Below are positions 15,300-64,000 of a DNA stretch of 64,000 nt, one piece after another (the first letter of the stretch is position 1; every line of letters begins with the position of its first letter). The stretch spans positions 1-64,000 of the forward strand of contig JAODTK010005795.1 in the NCBI GenBank assembly GCA_026419785.1, in the 5' to 3' direction. The position numbers and the translations under genes are program-made. The notes under the pieces are model-generated. The model did no database searches, was not told the DNA's origin, and worked only from the letters and a program-made list of their open reading frames with translations. The DNA is from Sclerodactyla briareus (Eukaryota; Echinodermata; Holothuroidea; Dendrochirotida; Sclerodactylidae).

Positions 15300-16140
15300 T
15301 TTCTTATAAACGCTTCTTTTATATCGAACAGAGCCAAACAATTCCTATCACGGATCTATAGGGGTAGTCCATTTGCCCCTTATCGGACTTGTCAAATTAT
15401 AATCGACAGCCAGACTTCCTTCACGACTTTAGGGTTAGTTTTCGTTCGTCCCCTTATGTGACTTGTCAATTTTATAATCGACAGCCAACATCTCTTATCA
15501 CACGGATCATTGGGGGCAGTCCATTTGCCCCTTATGGGAACTTTTTGTTTATTTTATAGTCGACAGCCAAACATCCCATCACGGATCTATTATGGGGTAG
15601 TTCATCTGCCCCTTACGTACAATGACTTGTCACCTTTATACAATCGACAAGCCAGACATCTCCTATTCACGGCATCTATTCGGGGTAGTTCGTTCGCCCC
15701 TTATGTGACTTGTCAATTTTATAATCGGCCAAACATCTCCTATCAAACGGATTATTAGAGGGGTAGTCCATTTGCCTTGCCCCTTATAGGAATTGTTAAT
15801 TTTAATAATCGACAGCCAAACATCTTCCCACACGGATCTATCAGGGTATTCATTTGCCCTTTACAGGACTTGTCAAATTTATAATCGACGGCCAGACATT
15901 CCTATCACGGATCTATTAGGGGTAGTTCGTTCGTTTCGCCCCTTATAGAACTTGTCAATTTTATAAATCGCCAGCCAAGATCTCCAATCACGGATCTATT
16001 AGGGTTATTCATTTGCCCGTTATAAGCTTGTCATTTCTATTATATCCAAATGACAACTAGAAATCTCCTATACCACGGACCAAAAAACAAAAAACAAAAA
16101 AAAACAATCAAAAAACTATTGGGGGTAGTTCCATCGTAGC
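15300..16140. repeat. Tandem array, ~80-bp unit, about 10 copies
   Basis: Each unit reads approximately CACGGATCTATTAGGGGTAG, TTCATTTGCCCCTTAT, GACTTGTCAATTTTATAATC, GACAGCCAAACATCTCCTAT. The CGGATCTATT word or a variant occurs near 15351, 15421, 15503, 15582, 15671, 15748, 15833, 15907 and 15990, giving spacings of 70-89 bases. The last unit is interrupted by an A-rich insert near 16081-16110. Divergence is mostly short indels. This is minisatellite-like and non-coding. Confidence 0.9.
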
Positions 16141-54700: not shown

Positions 54701-57700
54701 AACAGGTCTGTCAAAATTTTGGTCGTCTTCTGAACGATCCAGACGATTGAAGAAAACAAAAATTGAGCACTGAAACACAGCAAATTAGGGTGCCAGAATG
54801 AGCTGAAAAAAATTTAGGAGAAAAAAAAAGGCTCCACGATATTAGAGAAAGAATCTCGTTCATTGTCGTGGAGAGAGATATTAAAGAAAATCTCTTTAAT
54901 GTTTGTGAGATCAAGTCCGAGTCGGGCCCTAATACAACTGTGAATTTTGGCATAGATATATAGAGTAGGTCAATCAGTTAGTTGTTGCATCACCCCACAA
55001 ACAGAATATGTTGTAGTGTTGCATAATATTCCAATGAAACTCCCACACGGCCTACCTGTTTTAGAGATGAAGTCATCATCGAGTAGGTTTATAACAACAA
55101 GTCATGTAAATGCAAACTGCAATGCCCTAAACAACCCAAACTATCCAATTACTCCCTCCCCCCTCCAACTCTCATGGACCCATGTATTTTTTCAAGACAC
55201 GTTATCACTTTGAAGTATTTGTTTATTGCATGCATTCCAAGAAAATCTTCAATCCATAGTTTTTGCAGACAACAGCACAGTGTAGTTTCATGAGAATGCC
55301 ACCTCTGCTGACGGCCATTCAGCAAGCAGTTTAGTCGGTTAAACCCACTATTTGGCTACTTTTACATTTGGAGTGAGTGATTTTGATGACATTGACGAAC
55401 AAGGTAGTAGTACATCCCGATTCAAGATTATCAATGTCATAAGAATTTCTTTTTTTTTTTGCAGTCGTCTTTCCCAGGTTTCCCTATGGATTTCTTTGAC
55501 GGTTCTGACCTGGTTTCCAGGTCGAGGCCCCCTGGCCCCCCCCCCCACCCCCCGAGTCCGAACTGGCAAACCTGGTCATCGTAGCAGAATTCCTAGACCT
55601 TCAACAACTGTCTCATACCAAGACGACTCGAGCCGTCCACACTGGTGCCCAGTGAGCCAAACTGTTTTACGAACCTCAGTGTCGAAATATCTACCTGATC
55701 AGCAGTTGTATTTTCGACCACTCCCCCCCCCATGGAAAGCCGAGCTGGTTCCGCCGGGCTTCTAACTCATAGCTTCCACTAGCCCGAACAAAAAGTTGAC
55801 TAGCCCAATAAAATTTATTAGGCCGACCCCACCGCTCGCCTCACTGCGAAACTTCCAACCAACGATGCTCGAGGAGCGAGTTACGTTATAAGTCGCGCGA
55901 ATAGCTGCGAACAAGGCGTAAGTATGTCAAACATATTCAGTCATATCCTAATCAGTGTTGATTGCTAGGTTTCGAAATGTGGGGGGGATTGCCCACTACA
56001 ATTTTTCAAAGGGGGATTGGAAATTGGGGGGGGGTTCACAAGAAAATAGATCGGCAGTCTTTGATCATGCATACACCGAACATGCAACGTTGCCCGTTTC
56101 ACATTGGGAGTTGGTGTGCTAAGGGGTTTAAGCCTCCATCGTGGCCAATTGTCTACCCGACTCGCTCTCTCAAACGGACTGCATTGAAAACTATTGACTA
56201 CACAAGTTGAACTGTATATAGGCAAGGGTACCGGGAAATCACCCATGCCATACCATCATGCTTTCACCCCATAGCAACATGACTGTCCCCGAAAGGGCAA
56301 ATCCTCAACGGGGCAACATTTTTGGCCCATAGTGATGTTCTTCCCAGGCAAAATTGGATTTTGTGTGAATAATAAGAAAATAAAAATGATAATTTCCAAC
56401 CCACAAAAATTCCCGCAAGGTAGCCACCATTACACCTAAGCTACTGAACTTGCTATGACTTTTTACGGGATCACACTCAGCCTGCGATCAGAAAAGTGGT
56501 TATCTGAAGACACCTTGACAAAAAACATGCTTCCAATTTCTTTTGTGAAAAGTGTTGGTATCAACCATCCACATGCACTGTTTAATTATTTGCTGACTTT
56601 TAAATGTTTTCAGATCGCAGATTCTAACGTATTTTACAGTGTCCTTGGTCCCATTCCACAAGGTTAACATAGAGTGTGTACATAAACCCAGTACTACAAA
56701 GTCATGTCAATCGAACGTTAACGATGTGTAGGTTAAAAATAGTGTTTCTCTCATGTTCTGCAGTGTTACGATGTCTGACACAATGATATTAGTATGAATA
56801 CATTGTGCCTGAAGTCCTGAGATCGTGACTGGTTGAAAAGATTGCAAAATTTACTATTCCTGTTATGGAAACCAGTGCGAGTCATTCCACACATATAAAT
56901 TATTTTGTGCGGGATTTTGAGTTTTGAGTGCGCAGATCATGCGATCCCACACCTTTAGCGTGAACACTGATCGTAATGCACAGTTCACTCGGTGAGTCTG
57001 TGTTCACGTGGGGCCGGGCGTTTCTTATACAACTTTTTGTTATGGGACTACGATCGTTGATCGGCTTACATTTTCGTGACTGTCGAGTATCAGCCCGACG
57101 GGCAGCTGCAGCAGTGTTTCTAGTAGCCCGAACTGAACTTCGAGTAGCCCCGGGCTATCGGGCTTACGTAAATTTCGAGCACTGTTTCCGCTTTATGTTA
57201 TGAAGTGCCTAATCATATCACGTAGATCATCTAGTGCAAGCAGTCAGTGTTTAAATAAATCTGTCATGCTATGGTGCATTTGATTGGTGCTCGTACTTGT
57301 AAGGATTAAATTCATATTAGTGATATGCTCAAAGAACAACTCAACAAGACATCAACAAGACAAGAGCTTCTGCAGAAAGTGCAATGGGAAAGCATTGAAA
57401 TAAATCAGGAGCCACGGAAAAACAATGAGATCATCCGACTCCCAAACAAGACTAGACAGAACCAACCCATTTAGGAACTAATGACATCCCCATCCCATCA
57501 TATAATTTAGGAATAAACTGCAACTGGAGACTTTTACTGGGAATAAACAGTCGAGAGTATGAATTTAGGTAAATGACGAACGAGGCGCAGCCGAGTTCGT
57601 TATTATACTAAATTCAGAGTCGAGACGATTTATGAACCAGTAAAAGTCGACCTGCTGTAGATTATTCCTTTCTACAACCCGCAACATTTAAATTATCCAA

Positions 57701-60621
57701 ACTATTAGAGATACTATATCTCTGATCTAATAATCTTGTTATCTGAACAGTAAATAACTTCTAGGGTACGGAGGCGCCATGTCAGAATATCGGCCGCCGC
57801 GGCTGCCTGGGCGAGCCGAGGGAAGCCGCGCCGCCGCCCTCCTCGGCGTTGGTTCGTTGCTATGACAAAACCAATAACAATAGCTGGGCAGACGCTGCCC
57901 GCTCGGCAGCACGCCTCATAATGAGCCTCACACCCTGCTATAGTGCATTGTGCGTGTGCCCAGTGCTATCGTGGAGGTCCCTATTGAAACGTGGCCGCCG
58001 ATGCCGCTGAGGCTTCTAAAAAAAACAATACTTGATTGGTAAAATGAGAAGACACTAAGTACTGTACTGGTTTGGTTTGTTTGACAATTTTAAAAATTTT
58101 TTTTATTCGATCGCTCACATCCTATTGTACATATATAAGCGAATTATACATGTCATCACCACAAAATCTTTATGAGGCTAATAAGAAGAGTTTGTGACCA
58201 CAATTTCAATATGAACGTTGTGTAGCTAGTCTTGAAGGTGGTAAACCTCGTGCAAAGGTAGTTAGGATTGTTCGGCCATGTATTTATCAACCTAAAAATA
58301 TAACTGAAAATAGACCAAATAGATATATAGAAGATTGCGAGGGGTTATCCGGGCGTACTAGGTGTCCTGAAAATCTCAACATTTAGTCAACCAAATCTAG
58401 AACATTGCGAGTGAAGTTGCGATAGCGTAAATAATTTTATTAGCGTGAAACTTTTGTCTATTGAGGCATCGGGGAGAGCACTTGCAATGCCCACACAAGA
58501 AATATCCGCCTGGGGGACGTAGCACTGGTGAACCACCTCCAAACACAAGCGTCCTCCGACTGCATTGGGGCAGTGCTGTCGAGACTTAACTTCGGCGGCA
58601 GTAGCAACGATCACTGATCGAGCATATATTATCTGATCAAAATTAACAACGTAGTACTGCATAGTATCCATGGACTGATCAAATCAATGATTAACGAACT
58701 CGATTTGAAACATGGTCTTCAGAGACTCAGAGGTGGTTTGAATAAATGAAATTAATCAGTTAATTTTTCTACCAATTACATATATAATGACATATTGTGT
58801 TCTTCACCTGCTTATCATAAGCGCCGCCCCAATCTCATTGGACTTGGTCCATTATTGCTATGGGGGGGGGTTTGGAATGTCACCTAGGCTCGTTGTTTAA
58901 ACAATGACTTTTTTACCAGTCTAGGAGAGGGATTGTTTGTGAGGACTTCATTTGGCAAAAATGGTGTCCCGCTACAGAACACGCCATAACTCGAAAACGG
59001 AAGGGATTTTTCATTTTTTCGGCAGTATCATGATTCATAAACCTAATTTAAGGATGCTCTATCCATCGGCTCCACTTTCGAGAAAATCGGGTCGTAGCCC
59101 GCTAGTATATTATACTTTTTCACGGAACTGGTACCATGGGTCGTGGGCTCAGCCCGGGCTACAGCCTATTTTTCTCGAAAGTGATACAGAATGGAAAGAG
59201 CATCCGTTAAGTTAGTTTTATGAAATCGGTATACGGCTGAAAAAATCTGAAAATCCCTTCCGTTCGGTTATGGAGCGATTTTCTCTACCCGCCGTCAGGC
59301 AGTCCTTAACTTTTCACCACATCGTAATATATGTCTGGTGTGTGTGTGCATCGAATGCAGTCCATTGTGTATATCGATCGATAGTTCGATTGAAATCGGC
59401 CGGCCCGGCCGCTGCTGCATTGCCCTTTGTTCAACATGAAGATAACGGTTCCGAACAGAGTCAGCGATGTTGCGTAAGGCATTAGATTGCGGTCTGATAA
59501 CCCTCGGCACGCGCGGCGCCTCGCCCAGGCCGCCGCAAGATTGCTCGGCAAGGCGGGCGGGCAGGCCGATGCTAAAACTTTTGGCACCCATGGCGCCTAA
59601 CTATGCCGAAAAAGTAAATTGCATTGCGTAGCATACACAAAAGATTGTTTGTTTGTAATGTAATACACGCAATAAAAACCACGCATGCCGAACCGGAGGG
59701 TTCTGCACGTTGATTGGGATTAGCCAATCAGAATCGTGTAGTAGCAATACCGGATAGCTTGGGGCTGTAGAATATAATAATGAATTATGAGACTGACCTC
59801 CTTTGGGGTCTTGGAAGGCCCAGGCCATGTGCAAGATAGCCTGGGGTCCCGACCTTCCCAGACCCAAGAAGAACCCTCTTCTTCTTGGGTCCGGGAACAC
59901 TCACGAGGCATGCATTTCCCACGTGTATGCAGAGGCACTTGATTGGGAGGATTAGCCAATCAGAATCCGTAGTCGCAATAATAACAGATAGCTTGGGCTT
60001 TGTAGAATATAATTGAATTATGCGACGACTCTTTGGGGGTCTTGAGCCCCAGGCCATGTTCCAGGCTAGCCTGGGGGGCCGCGACCTTCCCAGACCAAGA
60101 AGAACCTCTTCGTCTTGGGTCGGGAACACTCACGAGGCATGCATATACCACGGTATGCATGAGGCTACTTTGATGGGATAGCCAATCAGAATCGTATTCG
60201 CAAAAATTACTAAAAAAAAAAAAAGAAGCTTGGGCTGCTGTAGAATATAATATGAATTATGGGGACTGACCTCTTGGGGGGTCTTGAGCCCAGGCCAATG
60301 TTCCGGACTAGCTGGTGTCATTGACTTCACAGACCAAGAAGAACCCTCTTCTTCTTGGGTCGGGAACACTCACGAGGTAGGCAATACCACGGGTTAGCTG
60401 AAGCTAAGTGATGGGGTTTAGCCATATCAGAATTCCTGTATTCGCAATAGCAGATAGCTTGGGGCTGTAGAATATAATATGAATATGAGACTGACCTCTT
60501 GGGGGTCTTGAAGCCCAGGCCAATGTTCCGGACTAGCCTGGTGTCCTTGACCTTCCCAGACCAAGAAGAACCTCTTCTTGTTCTGGAATACGGAGGGATG
60601 GGTTTCTGATAGGCTTTCAGT
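48659..60621 (-). CDS. RPS11: Ribosomal protein S11 (uS17), three exons found, first exon missing
   Basis: RPS11 (uS17) is an essential cytosolic 40S protein binding 18S rRNA. On the minus strand exon 2 (60621-60496) gives TE-AYQKP, FQNKKR, VLLG-type, KVKDTRLVRNIGLGFKTPK; exon 3 (49904-49696) gives GTYIDKKCPVT, RGRMILNGVVIRMKMQRSIV, IRR, PKYK; the last exon (48782-48659) gives TVGECR, SKTIRFNVLKVNKAPG and KKQFH before a TGA. Exon lengths 126, 209 and 124 compare with about 132, 207 and 123 expected. Acceptors and donors are GT-AG. The short MADIQ exon was not found upstream. Single-base indels occur in every exon. Intron 2 is about 10.6 kb, unusually large for this gene, and is loaded with repeats including duplicate exon 2 copies. 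Confidence 0.92.
48783..49695 (-). other. RPS11 intron 3
   Basis: 913 bases, with A-runs at 49527-49541 and 49551-49560. I looked for C/D-box snoRNA signals, which RPS11 introns host in vertebrates, and saw no convincing C-D pair. Confidence 0.6.
49696..49904 (-). CDS. RPS11: RPS11 exon 3 (GTYIDKKCP ... MKMQRSIVIRR)
   Basis: Acceptor CTCTCTCCTCCGATTAG lies just above 49904, donor CAGG|GTATGT just below 49696. GTYIDKKCPVT, then GRMILNGVVIRMKMQRSIVI, RR and PKYK are readable, with indels near 49888, 49853 and 49775-49730. MKMQR-IVIRR is the most conserved part of RPS11. Confidence 0.95.
50261..50268. repeat. hAT target-site duplication, left
   Basis: CTAGCAGG, identical to 54409-54416. An 8-bp duplication is characteristic of hAT transposition. 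Confidence 0.9.
50269..54408. mobile_element. Non-autonomous hAT-type DNA transposon, 4.14 kb
   Basis: It starts TAGGGTTGCGCGGTAC and ends with the reverse complement TAGGGTTGCGTGGTAT, a ~16-bp terminal inverted repeat with the TAGGGTTGCG form typical of hAT elements, bounded by an identical 8-bp CTAGCAGG duplication. Subterminal zones (50285-50360 and 54275-54395) are rich in ACCGGTA/TACCGGT words in both orientations, probable transposase-binding motifs. No transposase frame is seen. The interior is mostly a 325-bp tandem array (50770-53545), with AT-rich filler on both sides. The perfect duplication suggests fairly recent insertion. It lies in RPS11 intron 2. Confidence 0.9.
50770..53545 (+). 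repeat. Tandem array of ~325-bp units (about 8 full units)
   Basis: The CCAAAACAATAGGG word marks units near 50853, 51199, 51541, 51843, 52173, 52501, 52799, 53115 and 53447, giving spacings of about 299-346. Unit order: ACAATAGGGTCATGTACTCA, TCATGGGGAACACACAT, CAAGTATGAGCTTCATCC, CCAGGTGGGGTCA, GTTATCGTGTTCACAAGCC, AAATTGGCCAAATTATTAAC, CTATTTTTGACCAAAATTCA, CCTATACCAGAAACC, GGGTTCCTGTACTCCCCATA, AAGCTACACACCAAATTTGA, TCAGACCAAACATTCTGGAC, CACAAGGTTTTCAGACTTTG, ACCTCTGGTGACCTCAGATG, ACCTCTGACCTGACC. Divergence is dominated by small indels. A T run (52429-52444) and an A run (53224-53244) interrupt it. Confidence 0.95.
54409..54416. repeat. hAT target-site duplication, right
   Basis: CTAGCAGG, the partner of 50261-50268. 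Confidence 0.9.
54417..55345. other. RPS11 intron 2, unassigned
   Basis: An open frame at 54447-54674 (+) begins 31 bases after the hAT target duplication but resembles no family. GTGGAGAGAGATATTAAAGA and nearby AGAGAAAGAATCTCGTTC words form weak inverted repeats near 54840-54900. Confidence 0.35.
55352..55765 (+). CDS. Candidate coding region, unrecognised, antisense to RPS11
   Basis: A + strand frame reads ATFTFGVSDFDDIDEQGSST and SRFK, crosses a T-rich tract ending TTTTTTTTTTGCAG (55445-55463), and then runs through a GC-rich block to TAA near 55765. After the acceptor one frame gives SSFPGFPMDFFDGSDLVSRS; after a C run the other gives HRSRIPRPSTTVSYQDD and KYLPDQQLYFRPLPPPW. SRIPRP resembles an EB1-binding SxIP motif. 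It could be two exons of a nested gene or a chance frame. Confidence 0.3.
   Translation: MATFTFGVSDFDDIDEQGSSTSRFKIINVIRISFFFCSRLSQVSLWISLTVLTWFPGRGPLAPPPTPRVRTGKPGHRSRIPRPSTTVSYQDDSSRPHWCPVSQTVLRTSVSKYLPDQQLYFRPLPPPWKAELVPPGF
55770..55835. repeat. AGCCCGA repeat, copy 1
   Basis: CCACTAGCCCGAACAAAAAG, TTGACTAGCCCAATAAA parallels TTCTAGTAGCCCGAACTGAAC and TTCGAGTAGCCCCGGG at 57118-57160, in the same orientation. Confidence 0.5.
55836..56580. other. RPS11 intron 2, unassigned
   Basis: Nothing recognised; G runs at 55981 and 56024. Confidence 0.35.
56585..56830. repeat. Dispersed repeat family D, copy 2
   Basis: TTTTAAATGTTTTCAGATCG, TTTACAGTG, GGTCCCATTCCACAAGG, TCATGTCAATCGAACG, AAAATAGTGTTTCTC and TGTCTGACACAATGATA parallel 10905-11160. 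Confidence 0.75.
57085..57190. repeat. AGCCCGA repeat, copy 2
   Basis: CAGCCCGACGGGCAG, GTAGCCCGAACTGAACTTCG, AGTAGCCCCGGGCTATCGGG and TAAATTTCGAGCACTG form alternating CCCG/CGGG words, partly palindromic. Confidence 0.55.
57509..57669. mobile_element. Fold-back MITE, 161 bp
   Basis: Nearly the whole element is palindromic. The left end AGGAATAAACTGCAACTGG, ACTTTTACTGG, then GTCGAGAGTATGAATTTAGG and ACGAACGAGG, mirrors the right end read in reverse: GGAATAATCTACAGCAGG, ACTTTTACTGG, GTCTCGACTCTGAATTTAGT and ACGAACTCGG. Only GCGCAGC lies between. No coding capacity. Confidence 0.85.
57770..58015. other. GC-rich, CpG-dense block
   Basis: ATCGGCCGCCGCGGCTGCC, GGGCGAGCCGAGG and GCCGCGCCGCCGCCCTCC stand out from the AT-rich intron. 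GGCGCCATG at the start and CTGCCTGGGCGAG recur inverted at 59510-59600. It could be a CpG island, but the inverted partner makes a repeat more likely. Confidence 0.45.
58020..58960. other. RPS11 intron 2, unassigned
   Basis: AT-rich with nothing recognised; a G run at 58862. Confidence 0.35.
58970..59282. mobile_element. Fold-back element with ~130-bp arms
   Basis: The left arm (58970-59102) reads CGCTACAGAACACGCCATAA, CTCGAAAACGGAAGGGATTT, TTTTCGGCAGTATCATGATT, GGATGCTCTATCCATC, CCACTTTCGAGAAAATCGGG, CGTAGCCCG. The reverse complement of the right arm (59152-59282) reads CGCTCCATAACC, GAACGGAAGGGATTTT, TTTTTTCAGCCGTATACCG, GGATGCTCTTTCCATT, TCACTTTCGAGAAAAATAGG, CTGTAGCCCG. The ~50-base loop holds GGGCTCAGCCC. 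No coding capacity. Confidence 0.88.
59395..59600. other. GC-rich block, inverted relative to 57770-58015
   Basis: ATCGGCCGGCCCGGCCGC, CGCGCGGCGCCTCGCCCAGG, CCGCCGC and GGCGGGCGGGCAGGCC. Read on the minus strand it begins GGCGCCATGGGTGCC with a 98-codon frame containing CGGCGGCCTGGGCGAGG. No family recognised; probably one arm of a larger inverted repeat. Confidence 0.4.
59710..60408 (-). repeat. Three extra partial copies of RPS11 exon 2 in a ~233-bp tandem array
   Basis: Units start near 59710, 59939, 60172 (the fourth, from ~60409, contains the authentic exon). Each has about 95 bases of exon 2 in antisense (59798-59890, 60029-60121, 60271-60361), ending in the donor context AAGGAG|GTCAGT or its remnant, plus ~135 bases of adjoining intron (GATTAGCCAATCAGAATC, GATAGCTTGGGGCTGTAGAA, TATAATATGAATTATG). 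The exon part reads KKKRVLLGSGKVG in the clearest copy. Copies lack the TE-AYQKP part and the acceptor; instead CCTCGTGAGTGTTCCCG abuts CCCAAGAAGAAG. They are therefore likely unspliced pseudo-exons. Confidence 0.88.
60496..60621 (-). CDS. RPS11: RPS11 exon 2 (authentic copy)
   Basis: Acceptor GATCTCTCCACAG precedes ACTGAAAGCCTATCAGAAAC (TE-AYQK), then FQNKKR, KVKDTRLVRNIGLGFKTPK and the donor AGAG|GTCAGT. It is the only one of four related copies that has the TE-AYQKP N-terminal part and an acceptor, so I take it as the functional exon. Confidence 0.92.
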
Positions 60622-60649
60622 CTGTGGAGAGATCAGAATTATAATCAAG

Positions 60650-61240
60650 TATCGTTCACATCCCATAACTTCGAAATTCCGCGTAATTATGCGAATCAGT
60701 GCCCCAGAATTGCAGTGAAGCCCACTTTGAAATCATCCGAGATTCATAGGGCGGACATGTGGTACCGAGTTCCAGATCAATGGATTGAAAGCTTTAAAAG
60801 AGTATCGCACTAAGCTAACGCCCAAAGCCTCCTGCGGATGGGCAGGAGCTGGGAACTAGGTTTATTACAATATTATTAATTTGGATATCAGAGTGTAGAT
60901 TTGAGAATACTGGCTATGTGAGGACATCGAAAGGTTTCGAGTTGGTACCAGGGGGTAGTAGGCCGAGCCAATGGATCCTGGGTGGTTGCCGGCAATGTCT
61001 TATCTGGTCAACCAATGACCAGGGGATGAGTCGCTAGTCGATGTAAGGAGGCGCTGCCTTGATCACAAGACTGATACACCCACATCTCAATCTTGAAAGA
61101 TGCTGTCATGCTGACCACACGCAAGATGTCTGTATTTTTTATTCCTCTTTGGTGGGTAATTCTCTCGAGACGGGAATTGAATCAGTGAGCTCAAAAAGCT
61201 GCTCGATTTGCTAGATGTAGGTCAGGTTAACGGGAACCAT
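60650..61240. other. Non-genic stretch upstream of RPS11 exon 2
   Basis: No RPS11 first exon is recognised. Nothing else noted. Confidence 0.4.
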
Positions 61241-61246
61241 TCACTG

Positions 61247-61640
61247 AGATCAGATTAGCTTAGTTGTAAGAGCTTCATCTGTTGATCGAAAGATTGTCAG
61301 TTCGCATCTTGCTTTGCTGCCGATCAGGGGCATGTAGCTTCTACGTGGGCCGCACCCGGGCGGAGCCACCCGGCACTCAAGCAGAAATCAGGCAATGCCA
61401 CCCAGCACTAAAAAAAAACAAAACATTTGTACTTTTTTTAGTAATGGGTAACTGTACACTGCAACAATATAGCCTTCATGCTGTAGAACCCCCCAATTTT
61501 TAAACACACAAAATGGCCCCCCATTGGGACCGGCCCCGTTGTGACTGCTGCGCATCACACTCTACACTATCCCCACATCTTCAACAGATTCGGATGGCAG
61601 AATGCCCAGCACTCAAAATTCTCTAGCTACAACCCTGCTG
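61247..61640 (+). mobile_element. SINE-like repeat with tRNA head, joined to family B
   Basis: GATTAGCTTAGTTGTAAGAG, CTTCATCTGTTGATCGAAAG and ATTGTCAGTTCGCATCTTGC have the A box, anticodon arm and B box of a tRNA. From about 61368 on (CTCAAGCAGAAATCAGG, CCAGCACTAAAAAAAAAC, ACAAAATGGCCCC, CTGCTGCGCAT, GGCAGAATGCCCAGC, CTACAACCCTG) it matches family B at 23170-23420. Family B may therefore be the body of this SINE. Confidence 0.7.
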
Positions 61641-62040
61641 CCGATAAAGAACAACTTCCACTCATTGTTCACAGAAGTAAAAAGATGTTAGACCTCCAGT
61701 ATCCAATCATTCATCATGTTGGAAAAGCCCCTGTTGTCCGTTTTAACCATTCAACTTTCCCATAGTGTCAGGGAGAAGCGAGGAATATAAGCCCTTCTCA
61801 CATTGTAACAATACCCACTAATTATAACAATGAAAAAATTCATATTGATGAAGTCCGAAACAACAACTCAAAAGAGTTCGAGAGCTCCTGGTAGCGTGAG
61901 AATTGGCCTTGATTCCAGAAGAGAATAAATGTTCGGTTTTCAAACGTTGTATTTGGGGGGCAGAGAAATCATAACCTTTGTGGTATCCCAACAAATATAG
62001 CTTCTCTATGTTGTGGCTATTGTAATCCCCTATATGACTA
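61641..62040. other. Non-genic stretch
   Basis: Nothing recognised. Confidence 0.4.
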
Positions 62041-62045
62041 TGACT

Positions 62046-62234
62046 CTACCTGGACAGAGTCAATTTAAAGTTCACATTATGGTAGCCATGTTTCTTTAGA
62101 CATCGATCCATGACGGCCTTCAAGTCATTCACAAAGGTTGCAAGTAAATAAGTCTCAAATAATGTCCAACCGCACAACCAAGGATTTTTTATTAGGCCAA
62201 AAGTCAATTTTTCGTGTCCATAACTACTGGGCAA
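62046..62234 (-). CDS. Weak candidate coding exon, unrecognised
   Basis: The minus frame TWLFETYLLATFVN-like (WTLFETYLLATFVNDLKAVM) then DRCLKKHGYHNVNFKLTLSR has normal composition and ends just past a plausible donor (GTCCAG|GTAGAG near 62053). No acceptor, partner exon or family is recognised. Confidence 0.18.
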   Translation of the reverse strand: MPSSYGHEKLTFGLIKNPWLCGWTLFETYLLATFVNDLKAVMDRCLKKHGYHNVNFKLTLSR

Positions 62235-62249
62235 TCACCGTAATAGTCA

Positions 62250-64000
62250 TTTCCCAGTAATTAATCAGGCAAGATCTCATTTGTTAAATTGAATATTTCT
62301 CCTTGTCATTTGCTCATTTCTTTCGTCAGTGTTATATATCAAATGATTTCTGGGTTCTATCACAGCTAGCAATTGCTCTCCCGCTCCTTTTGTCTGGGTG
62401 CTCCAGGGGTTGTGGATCAATAATGAAAGCCACTGGAACTGGAATCAAATGAATTCAAGTCTCTTCTGGAAAAGTTTGCCAATTTGTGAGATGTGATATC
62501 TCGTCCGCGCATTGCAGTCAGTACGTCGCATCGACATGCAGGACTAAAAATTTTCATGTCATTCCACCTTTTAATCACCTTCCCACTAGGCTTTGCGGTT
62601 CACGTCGACAGTGTCAGATCAATTCCCGTTTCTGGCGGGAGGGATTAGGGTACTGTCCCCATTTAGGTCCCTGGAGGAATTGTCACAAAAATGACCAGTT
62701 AGTTAAGTTTTAATAACAGTTTGCATTACATCAACAACTATGTTCCTGTTTGGGACTGAAACTAATGGAAACTTCTATCAGATGAATGATATTTCTAGAG
62801 GACTACTCAATAAGAGTACACGATCTGGAGGATTTCTGACAACTTTGCCCTCAAATATGAGGTAGCTACAGTTCTAATTGTGTTAGAAAATGTGTGAAAT
62901 CAGAAGAATATTGGGAGGAAAGTGAAAATTGATTTTTCATCAACAGCTCCAGGTGGTCAGTGGACTGATCATTGGCGAGGACTAATGTTCAGGTTGTTGT
63001 TCAATCACGCTGGCCTATTCACTGCTGATCCAAGATACGCCAAAATTGCCTACGTCACAATAGCGGAATACCACCCACTGACATCACGGGGTTAAACGAG
63101 AGTGAACATGTCAAAGCAATGGGACAGTATTCTTGACATCGCGTACATCAAAACTTTTCAGATAGGACTATGGTTCATGTACCATTCCTTCCATCGGCAC
63201 GAGAGGTGAAACAATTTCATCGATATTCGTACCTGTGCAAAAAAATTGCCACACGTACACTGGAAACGGGAGTAATTCGGACCCCAAAAGCTTAGGAGAA
63301 GCCCTTCAGTGTGTAAAGGAATAACATTAGGTCACTGTGCGTACCCACGCTCATGTAAAGCGAATCCAGTAATACTAATTCACCAATTTGCTGTTAGTCA
63401 GTGCATGTACGCACTGTGGCCTTCCCTACGTTAATTGGTTTGCACACTGAAAGGCTTATCTAAACTTGTTTTTGTCGGATTACTCACTCGTTGAAAATAA
63501 ATACAAAAATATGGATGAAAACATTTAGTGTTATTTGAACTGGAAGGAATGATACTGTACTAGCCTAGGCTAGCCACAGCGCCCCCTCAACTTCTTAGTA
63601 TATAGTATATAAATTACTGCAAGGGTTTGGACTCTTCTGCCATGACCAACGTTAAGCAGCCTGCGTAGTCGATTCAAACTGATTATGAGTTTTCCACCAT
63701 CTTTGGAAAAAAGTTGCCTCACCTGGAAGATCTGTGTTGTAATCAGCTTGCCAAGTAGTTTTTTCTCAAAAACTCGTCACAGTCTTTGTGTTTGAGTGAA
63801 TTTTCGGGTCTCAAGACATCTCCGGGGTCCAGAGAAAGTCAAGTATGACAATCGGTTTATTTCTTATTGTAAGCATATACGCAATCATCATGACCAATCA
63901 CGGTGGAGGTTCATAGACAATTCAGCATTTTTTTTGCCTTTTTGAATTTAGCCGGTGCAAGGCGTATTTCTGGTTACCGAGATCGTGCCCATATTTGATT
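62250..64000. other. Non-genic stretch to the window end
   Basis: No supported gene, RNA or bounded repeat. Confidence 0.4.

Follow-up and report, generated by a model that had tools for sequence, protein, structure and literature searches.

The window, by which we mean the whole stretch of 64,000 nucleotides from Sclerodactyla briareus that was analysed, carries on its minus strand the gene for ribosomal protein S11 (RPS11/uS17), the coding blocks of which are separated by introns. The authentic exon 2 lies at 60621-60496 (minus strand), with the acceptor CTCTCCACAG before position 60621 and the donor GT at 60495-60494. A frameshift-aware alignment placed the next coding block (GTYIDKKCP ... 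SPCF) at about 49904-49696 and the last one found (D..GD...TVGECRPISKTIRFNVLKV) at about 48782-48662, both on the minus strand; intron 2 measures ~10.6 kb. The open frame 60327-60632 (minus strand) matched uS17/RPS11 chains in the PDB with a best E of 4.7e-4, and a stitched reading composed of exon 2 and the later blocks, with frameshifts bridged by hand and doubtful positions given as X, matched them with an E of 5.7e-74, in agreement with the initial annotation, which had named RPS11 as the host gene and the repeated exon as its exon 2. In Pfam, an open-frame piece of RPS11 reached 17.2 bits with Ribosomal_S17, under the cut-off of 25.9, and nine other open frames of the window gave no match. 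Exon 1 was not found; two ATGGC words occur on the minus strand in 60640-64000, neither of them convincing.

When the three coding blocks were aligned to human RPS11, 23 frameshifted codons were counted over 461 bases and no stop codon was met, in an alignment that penalises stops and can bypass them and for which the window gave no second gene as a cross-check. Among the in-frame codons, 104 of 131 were identical to the human ones. On the strength of these three counts the frameshifts were read as assembly errors, and RPS11 as intact, the assembly being unpolished and carrying ~5% single-base indels at this locus. A processed or decayed pseudogene was discarded on the same lack of stops and codon identity and on the introns that split the coding blocks.

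Within this gene, TRF reported a tandem array at 59710-60579 (period 229, 3.8 copies, 78% matches, 12% indels, score 895) that begins within exon 2 and runs into intron 2. Four copies could be aligned in it, the number initially proposed, and blastn searches of the window with the unit sequences (E up to 0.01) gave matches confined to 59651-60579. On the minus strand, copy 1 (60579-60354) comprises the 3′ part of exon 2, its donor, the start of intron 2 and a linker; copy 2 (60353-60114) has the exon part nearest to that of copy 1, an intact donor octamer and a linker; copy 3 (60113-59884) has a linker and a donor octamer that is not intact; and copy 4 (59883-59710) has an intact octamer with no linker after it. 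A run of 13 A on the plus strand, at 60212-60224, is an insertion confined to copy 2. Head-to-tail copies of one gene segment are what characterizes an intragenic tandem duplication, and the origin of the copies in the host's own exon was indicated by frameshift-aware scores against RPS11 of 90, 84, 74 and 81 for copies 1 to 4, respectively, as compared to a shuffled maximum of 44 (n=60). In the exon parts of copies 2, 3 and 4, 18/26, 17/27 and 18/25 codons are identical to those of RPS11, a persisting protein-likeness that selection or a recent origin would also yield.

Other repeats are present in the window. The array is adjoined by an imperfect inverted repeat at 58996-59264, with arms of ~100 bases and a centre of ~53 bases, which resembles an element of the foldback or MITE type. 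TRF also reported a tandem array at 15332-16040 (period 83 or 159, 8.9 copies, 70% matches, 17% indels) and a tandem repeat at 90-336 (unit of 138 bases, 1.8 copies, 84% matches). Homopolymer runs of at least 10 bases number 30 for G or C and 11 for A or T over the whole window, where a first-order Markov model predicts 0.2 and 0.7, respectively.

The extra copies had been described at first as diverging from one another. Among the six copy pairs, indel events amounted to 0.068-0.087 per aligned base, not above the ~0.10 expected for two copies at the local rate of 23/461, so that indels between copies carry no information and are probably noise. The substitutions are genuine differences and came to 10.7-17.4% over whole units at the lower gap setting. 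In the exon part, copy 1 differs from copies 2, 3 and 4 at 2/79, 10/80 and 12/80 positions, copy 2 from copies 3 and 4 at 12/79 and 15/79, and copy 3 from copy 4 at 8/80; in the intron part the corresponding values are 13/84, 8/81 and 7/83, then 12/85 and 10/81, and 7/79. The exonic value of copies 1 and 2, which bounds the substitution error at ~1% per copy, is below those of copies 1 and 3 (Fisher p 0.032) and of copies 1 and 4 (p 0.0094), and also below the intronic value of the same pair (p 0.0054), all p values being uncorrected and dependent on the alignment. The described divergence stands for substitutions, in the exons of five of the six pairs, while much of what is seen as divergence is probably indel noise.

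Sites at which the copies split two against two place copies 1 and 2 against copies 3 and 4 ten times, copies 1 and 4 against 2 and 3 once and copies 1 and 3 against 2 and 4 never, with the caveat that four of the ten (aligned columns 86-91) could reflect one shifted base. This grouping bears on the possibility of an assembly artefact, that is, a chain built from noisy reads of fewer copies, or a head-to-tail fusion of alleles. The indel rate of the coding blocks is that of an unpolished assembly, and the copy number may be inexact, but random errors would not be shared as these substitutions are, and the linkers of the array do not occur in its flanks; we regard such an artefact as improbable. 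The substitutions and the linkers common to the copies likewise bear out the earlier view that a simple collapse of identical reads is unlikely.

The linkers, of ~43-46 bases, lie at each of the three junctions between copies, at 60366-60408 (copies 1/2), 60126-60168 (copies 2/3) and 59896-59941 (copies 3/4) on the minus strand, with borders set by hand; none follows copy 4, which ends at the point where a linker would start. They resemble each other (local scores 84, 67 and 98) and showed no likeness to the 5′ part of exon 2 or to either flank of the array (nine tests, shuffle fractions 0.077-0.95). A search for their source across the window gave best scores within the shuffle range. In 57000-63000, the linkers of junctions 2/3 and 3/4 had a single plus-strand match each (0/100 and 1/100 shuffles, respectively), at different places, and that of junction 1/2 had none. 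A 21-base linker word had no match in GTDB contigs, which are prokaryotic and little informative here. An inverted copy of the exon 2 start in each unit was also considered and rejected as not significant, its scores being reached by 0.106, 0.085, 0.107 and 0.498 of 1000 shuffles.

The absence of a linker after copy 4 can be accounted for in two ways. A plain tandem duplication of a contiguous segment, silent too, would make the linker a piece of ordinary intron that was later deleted from the last copy; filler is then unnecessary, and the length of the three linkers, each of which stops at an exon copy, would suit a normal piece of intron. This reading requires, however, an extra deletion precisely at the linker start in the last copy, and no trace of a linker was detected after 59710 (shuffle fractions 0.46, 0.54 and 0.87), and we consider it rather unlikely. 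The reading that we favour is that filler remained at the junction of the first duplication and that crossing-over multiplied the unit together with this junction, hence four copies with three linkers and a last copy without one.

The favoured reading ties the first event to a hairpin, since the repeated unit begins inside a quasi-palindrome of exon 2 (codons for FQNKKRVLLG). In copy 1 this stretch (60549-60593, minus strand) gave a DNA fold of -12.4 kcal/mol (z -6.37, 0/200 shuffles), and a hairpin with near-perfect 19-base arms at the junction of copies 3 and 4 (59854-59898, minus strand) gave -20.0 kcal/mol (z -6.73, 0/200). The folds at junctions 1/2 and 2/3 were -9.0 kcal/mol (z -2.76) and -10.6 (z -2.99), and as RNA copies 2 and 3 reached -14.7 and -12.1 vs. 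-17.2 for copy 1. The hairpins of copies 2 and 3 are weaker than that of copy 1, perhaps in part through indel noise, and the improvement of the arms is clear at the junction of copies 3 and 4 alone. Template switching that makes the arms of inverted repeats in coding DNA more alike is described in PMC8604942.

As for the splice sites, the acceptor CTCTCCACAG occurs once within 59600-60700, in copy 1, so the acceptor and the start of the exon are indeed restricted to the outermost copy. Under exon definition, copies without an acceptor should be skipped, and since no copy after the first has the exon 2 acceptor, the extra copies should exit with intron 2. The donor octamer AGGTCAGT is found in three of the four copies, with its GT at 60495 (copy 1), 60270 (copy 2) and 59797 (copy 4), and is missing from copy 3. 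As two of the three extra copies retain it exactly, donor competition is possible. The acceptor-like TTCTACAG is present in three of the four units, copy 3 having no acceptor-like AG, and GTGAGT is present in all three linkers; small cassettes bounded by these two words could exist within the units, a suggestion weakened by the 15 occurrences of GTGAGT along the window's minus strand. The array does not have the organization of tandemly duplicated alternative exons, in which each copy has its own acceptor, donor and open frame, because the exon 2 acceptor is in copy 1 only and the donor octamer in three of four copies. Among the roles that the initial annotation had considered, that of silent pseudo-exons is the best fit.

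Ribosomal protein genes are known to undergo unproductive splicing. A regulatory array, in which RPS11 would be tuned by this route through the repeated donors or through cassettes within a unit that extend from TTCTACAG to CTC/GTGAGT, could draw on the donor octamers and splice-like words kept in most units; against it, GTGAGT is common, copy 3 has lost both its donor and its acceptor-like AG, and no known regulatory RNA family was matched, and we would give such a role little credence. A shade less probable still would be a splicing decoy kept by the gene, in which repeated donors and TTCTACAG-GTGAGT cassettes would make unproductive RPS11 forms and the exon part of copy 2 would be held by selection, not by conversion.

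Rfam gave no match at the curated gathering cut-off over the whole window, and no tRNA was found. In 59500-60900, six Rfam matches were returned up to E 5, each under its own cut-off; two of them, to mir-4659 (27.6 and 22.5 bits, cut-off 92), were rejected as reflecting the hairpin. The possibility that the unit contains a known RNA gene, such as an intronic snoRNA, was rejected as well, no Rfam family reaching a curated score. A CCAAT-box-like word on the plus strand, AGCCAATCAGAAT, is exact in three units (59722, 59954 and 60180) and is followed ~50 bases further on by an AT-rich TATA-like stretch; since its occurrences are copies of one another, they are weak evidence. As regards an antisense promoter, CCAAT-type sites in the window number 18 vs. 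12.2 expected, a count reached by 6/100 shuffles.

Most likely, the three extra copies are silent remnants left when DNA copying slipped at a site prone to hairpins. For the array as a whole, we infer, with somewhat more confidence than doubt, a non-functional intronic tandem duplication that arose in the following order. A replication or repair error (template switch or slippage) at the quasi-palindrome of exon 2 would have duplicated the 3′ part of the exon, its donor and ~90 intron bases, with filler left at the junction as a linker that carries a second hairpin arm of better match. From these two copies, unequal crossing-over or slippage would then have produced four copies and three junctions identical by descent. 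Copies 2 to 4, silent in the RNA, would be spliced out as part of the ~10.6-kb intron 2 and drift, and gene conversion has probably made the exon part of copy 2 uniform with the real exon.

The RPS11 array is like other intragenic partial-exon tandem duplications in that an exon fragment, its donor and flanking intron are repeated head to tail within one gene, and unlike them in its four copies of ~230 bases, in its location in a ribosomal protein gene and in its common filler linker. With quasi-palindrome correction by short template switching (PMC8604942), the array shares a breakpoint in a non-identical inverted repeat and one junction with nearly perfect arms, whereas in RPS11 the putative event goes along with a tandem duplication and its filler, for which no source was found in the window. 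Like the poison exons of unproductively spliced ribosomal protein genes, the RPS11 intron holds splice-like sites; unlike them, the extra copies have no exon 2 acceptor. No title in our literature search had a nuclear RPS11 exon array as its subject. The mutational process is an ordinary one, and its location is unusual.

The array is also a warning: before an assembly is polished, its indel noise can pass for divergence between copies. It records in legible form how, within a highly expressed gene, a coding stretch prone to hairpins can give rise to a series of broken exon copies in an intron; should the extra donors be in use, the locus would provide a natural test of competition among several identical donors.
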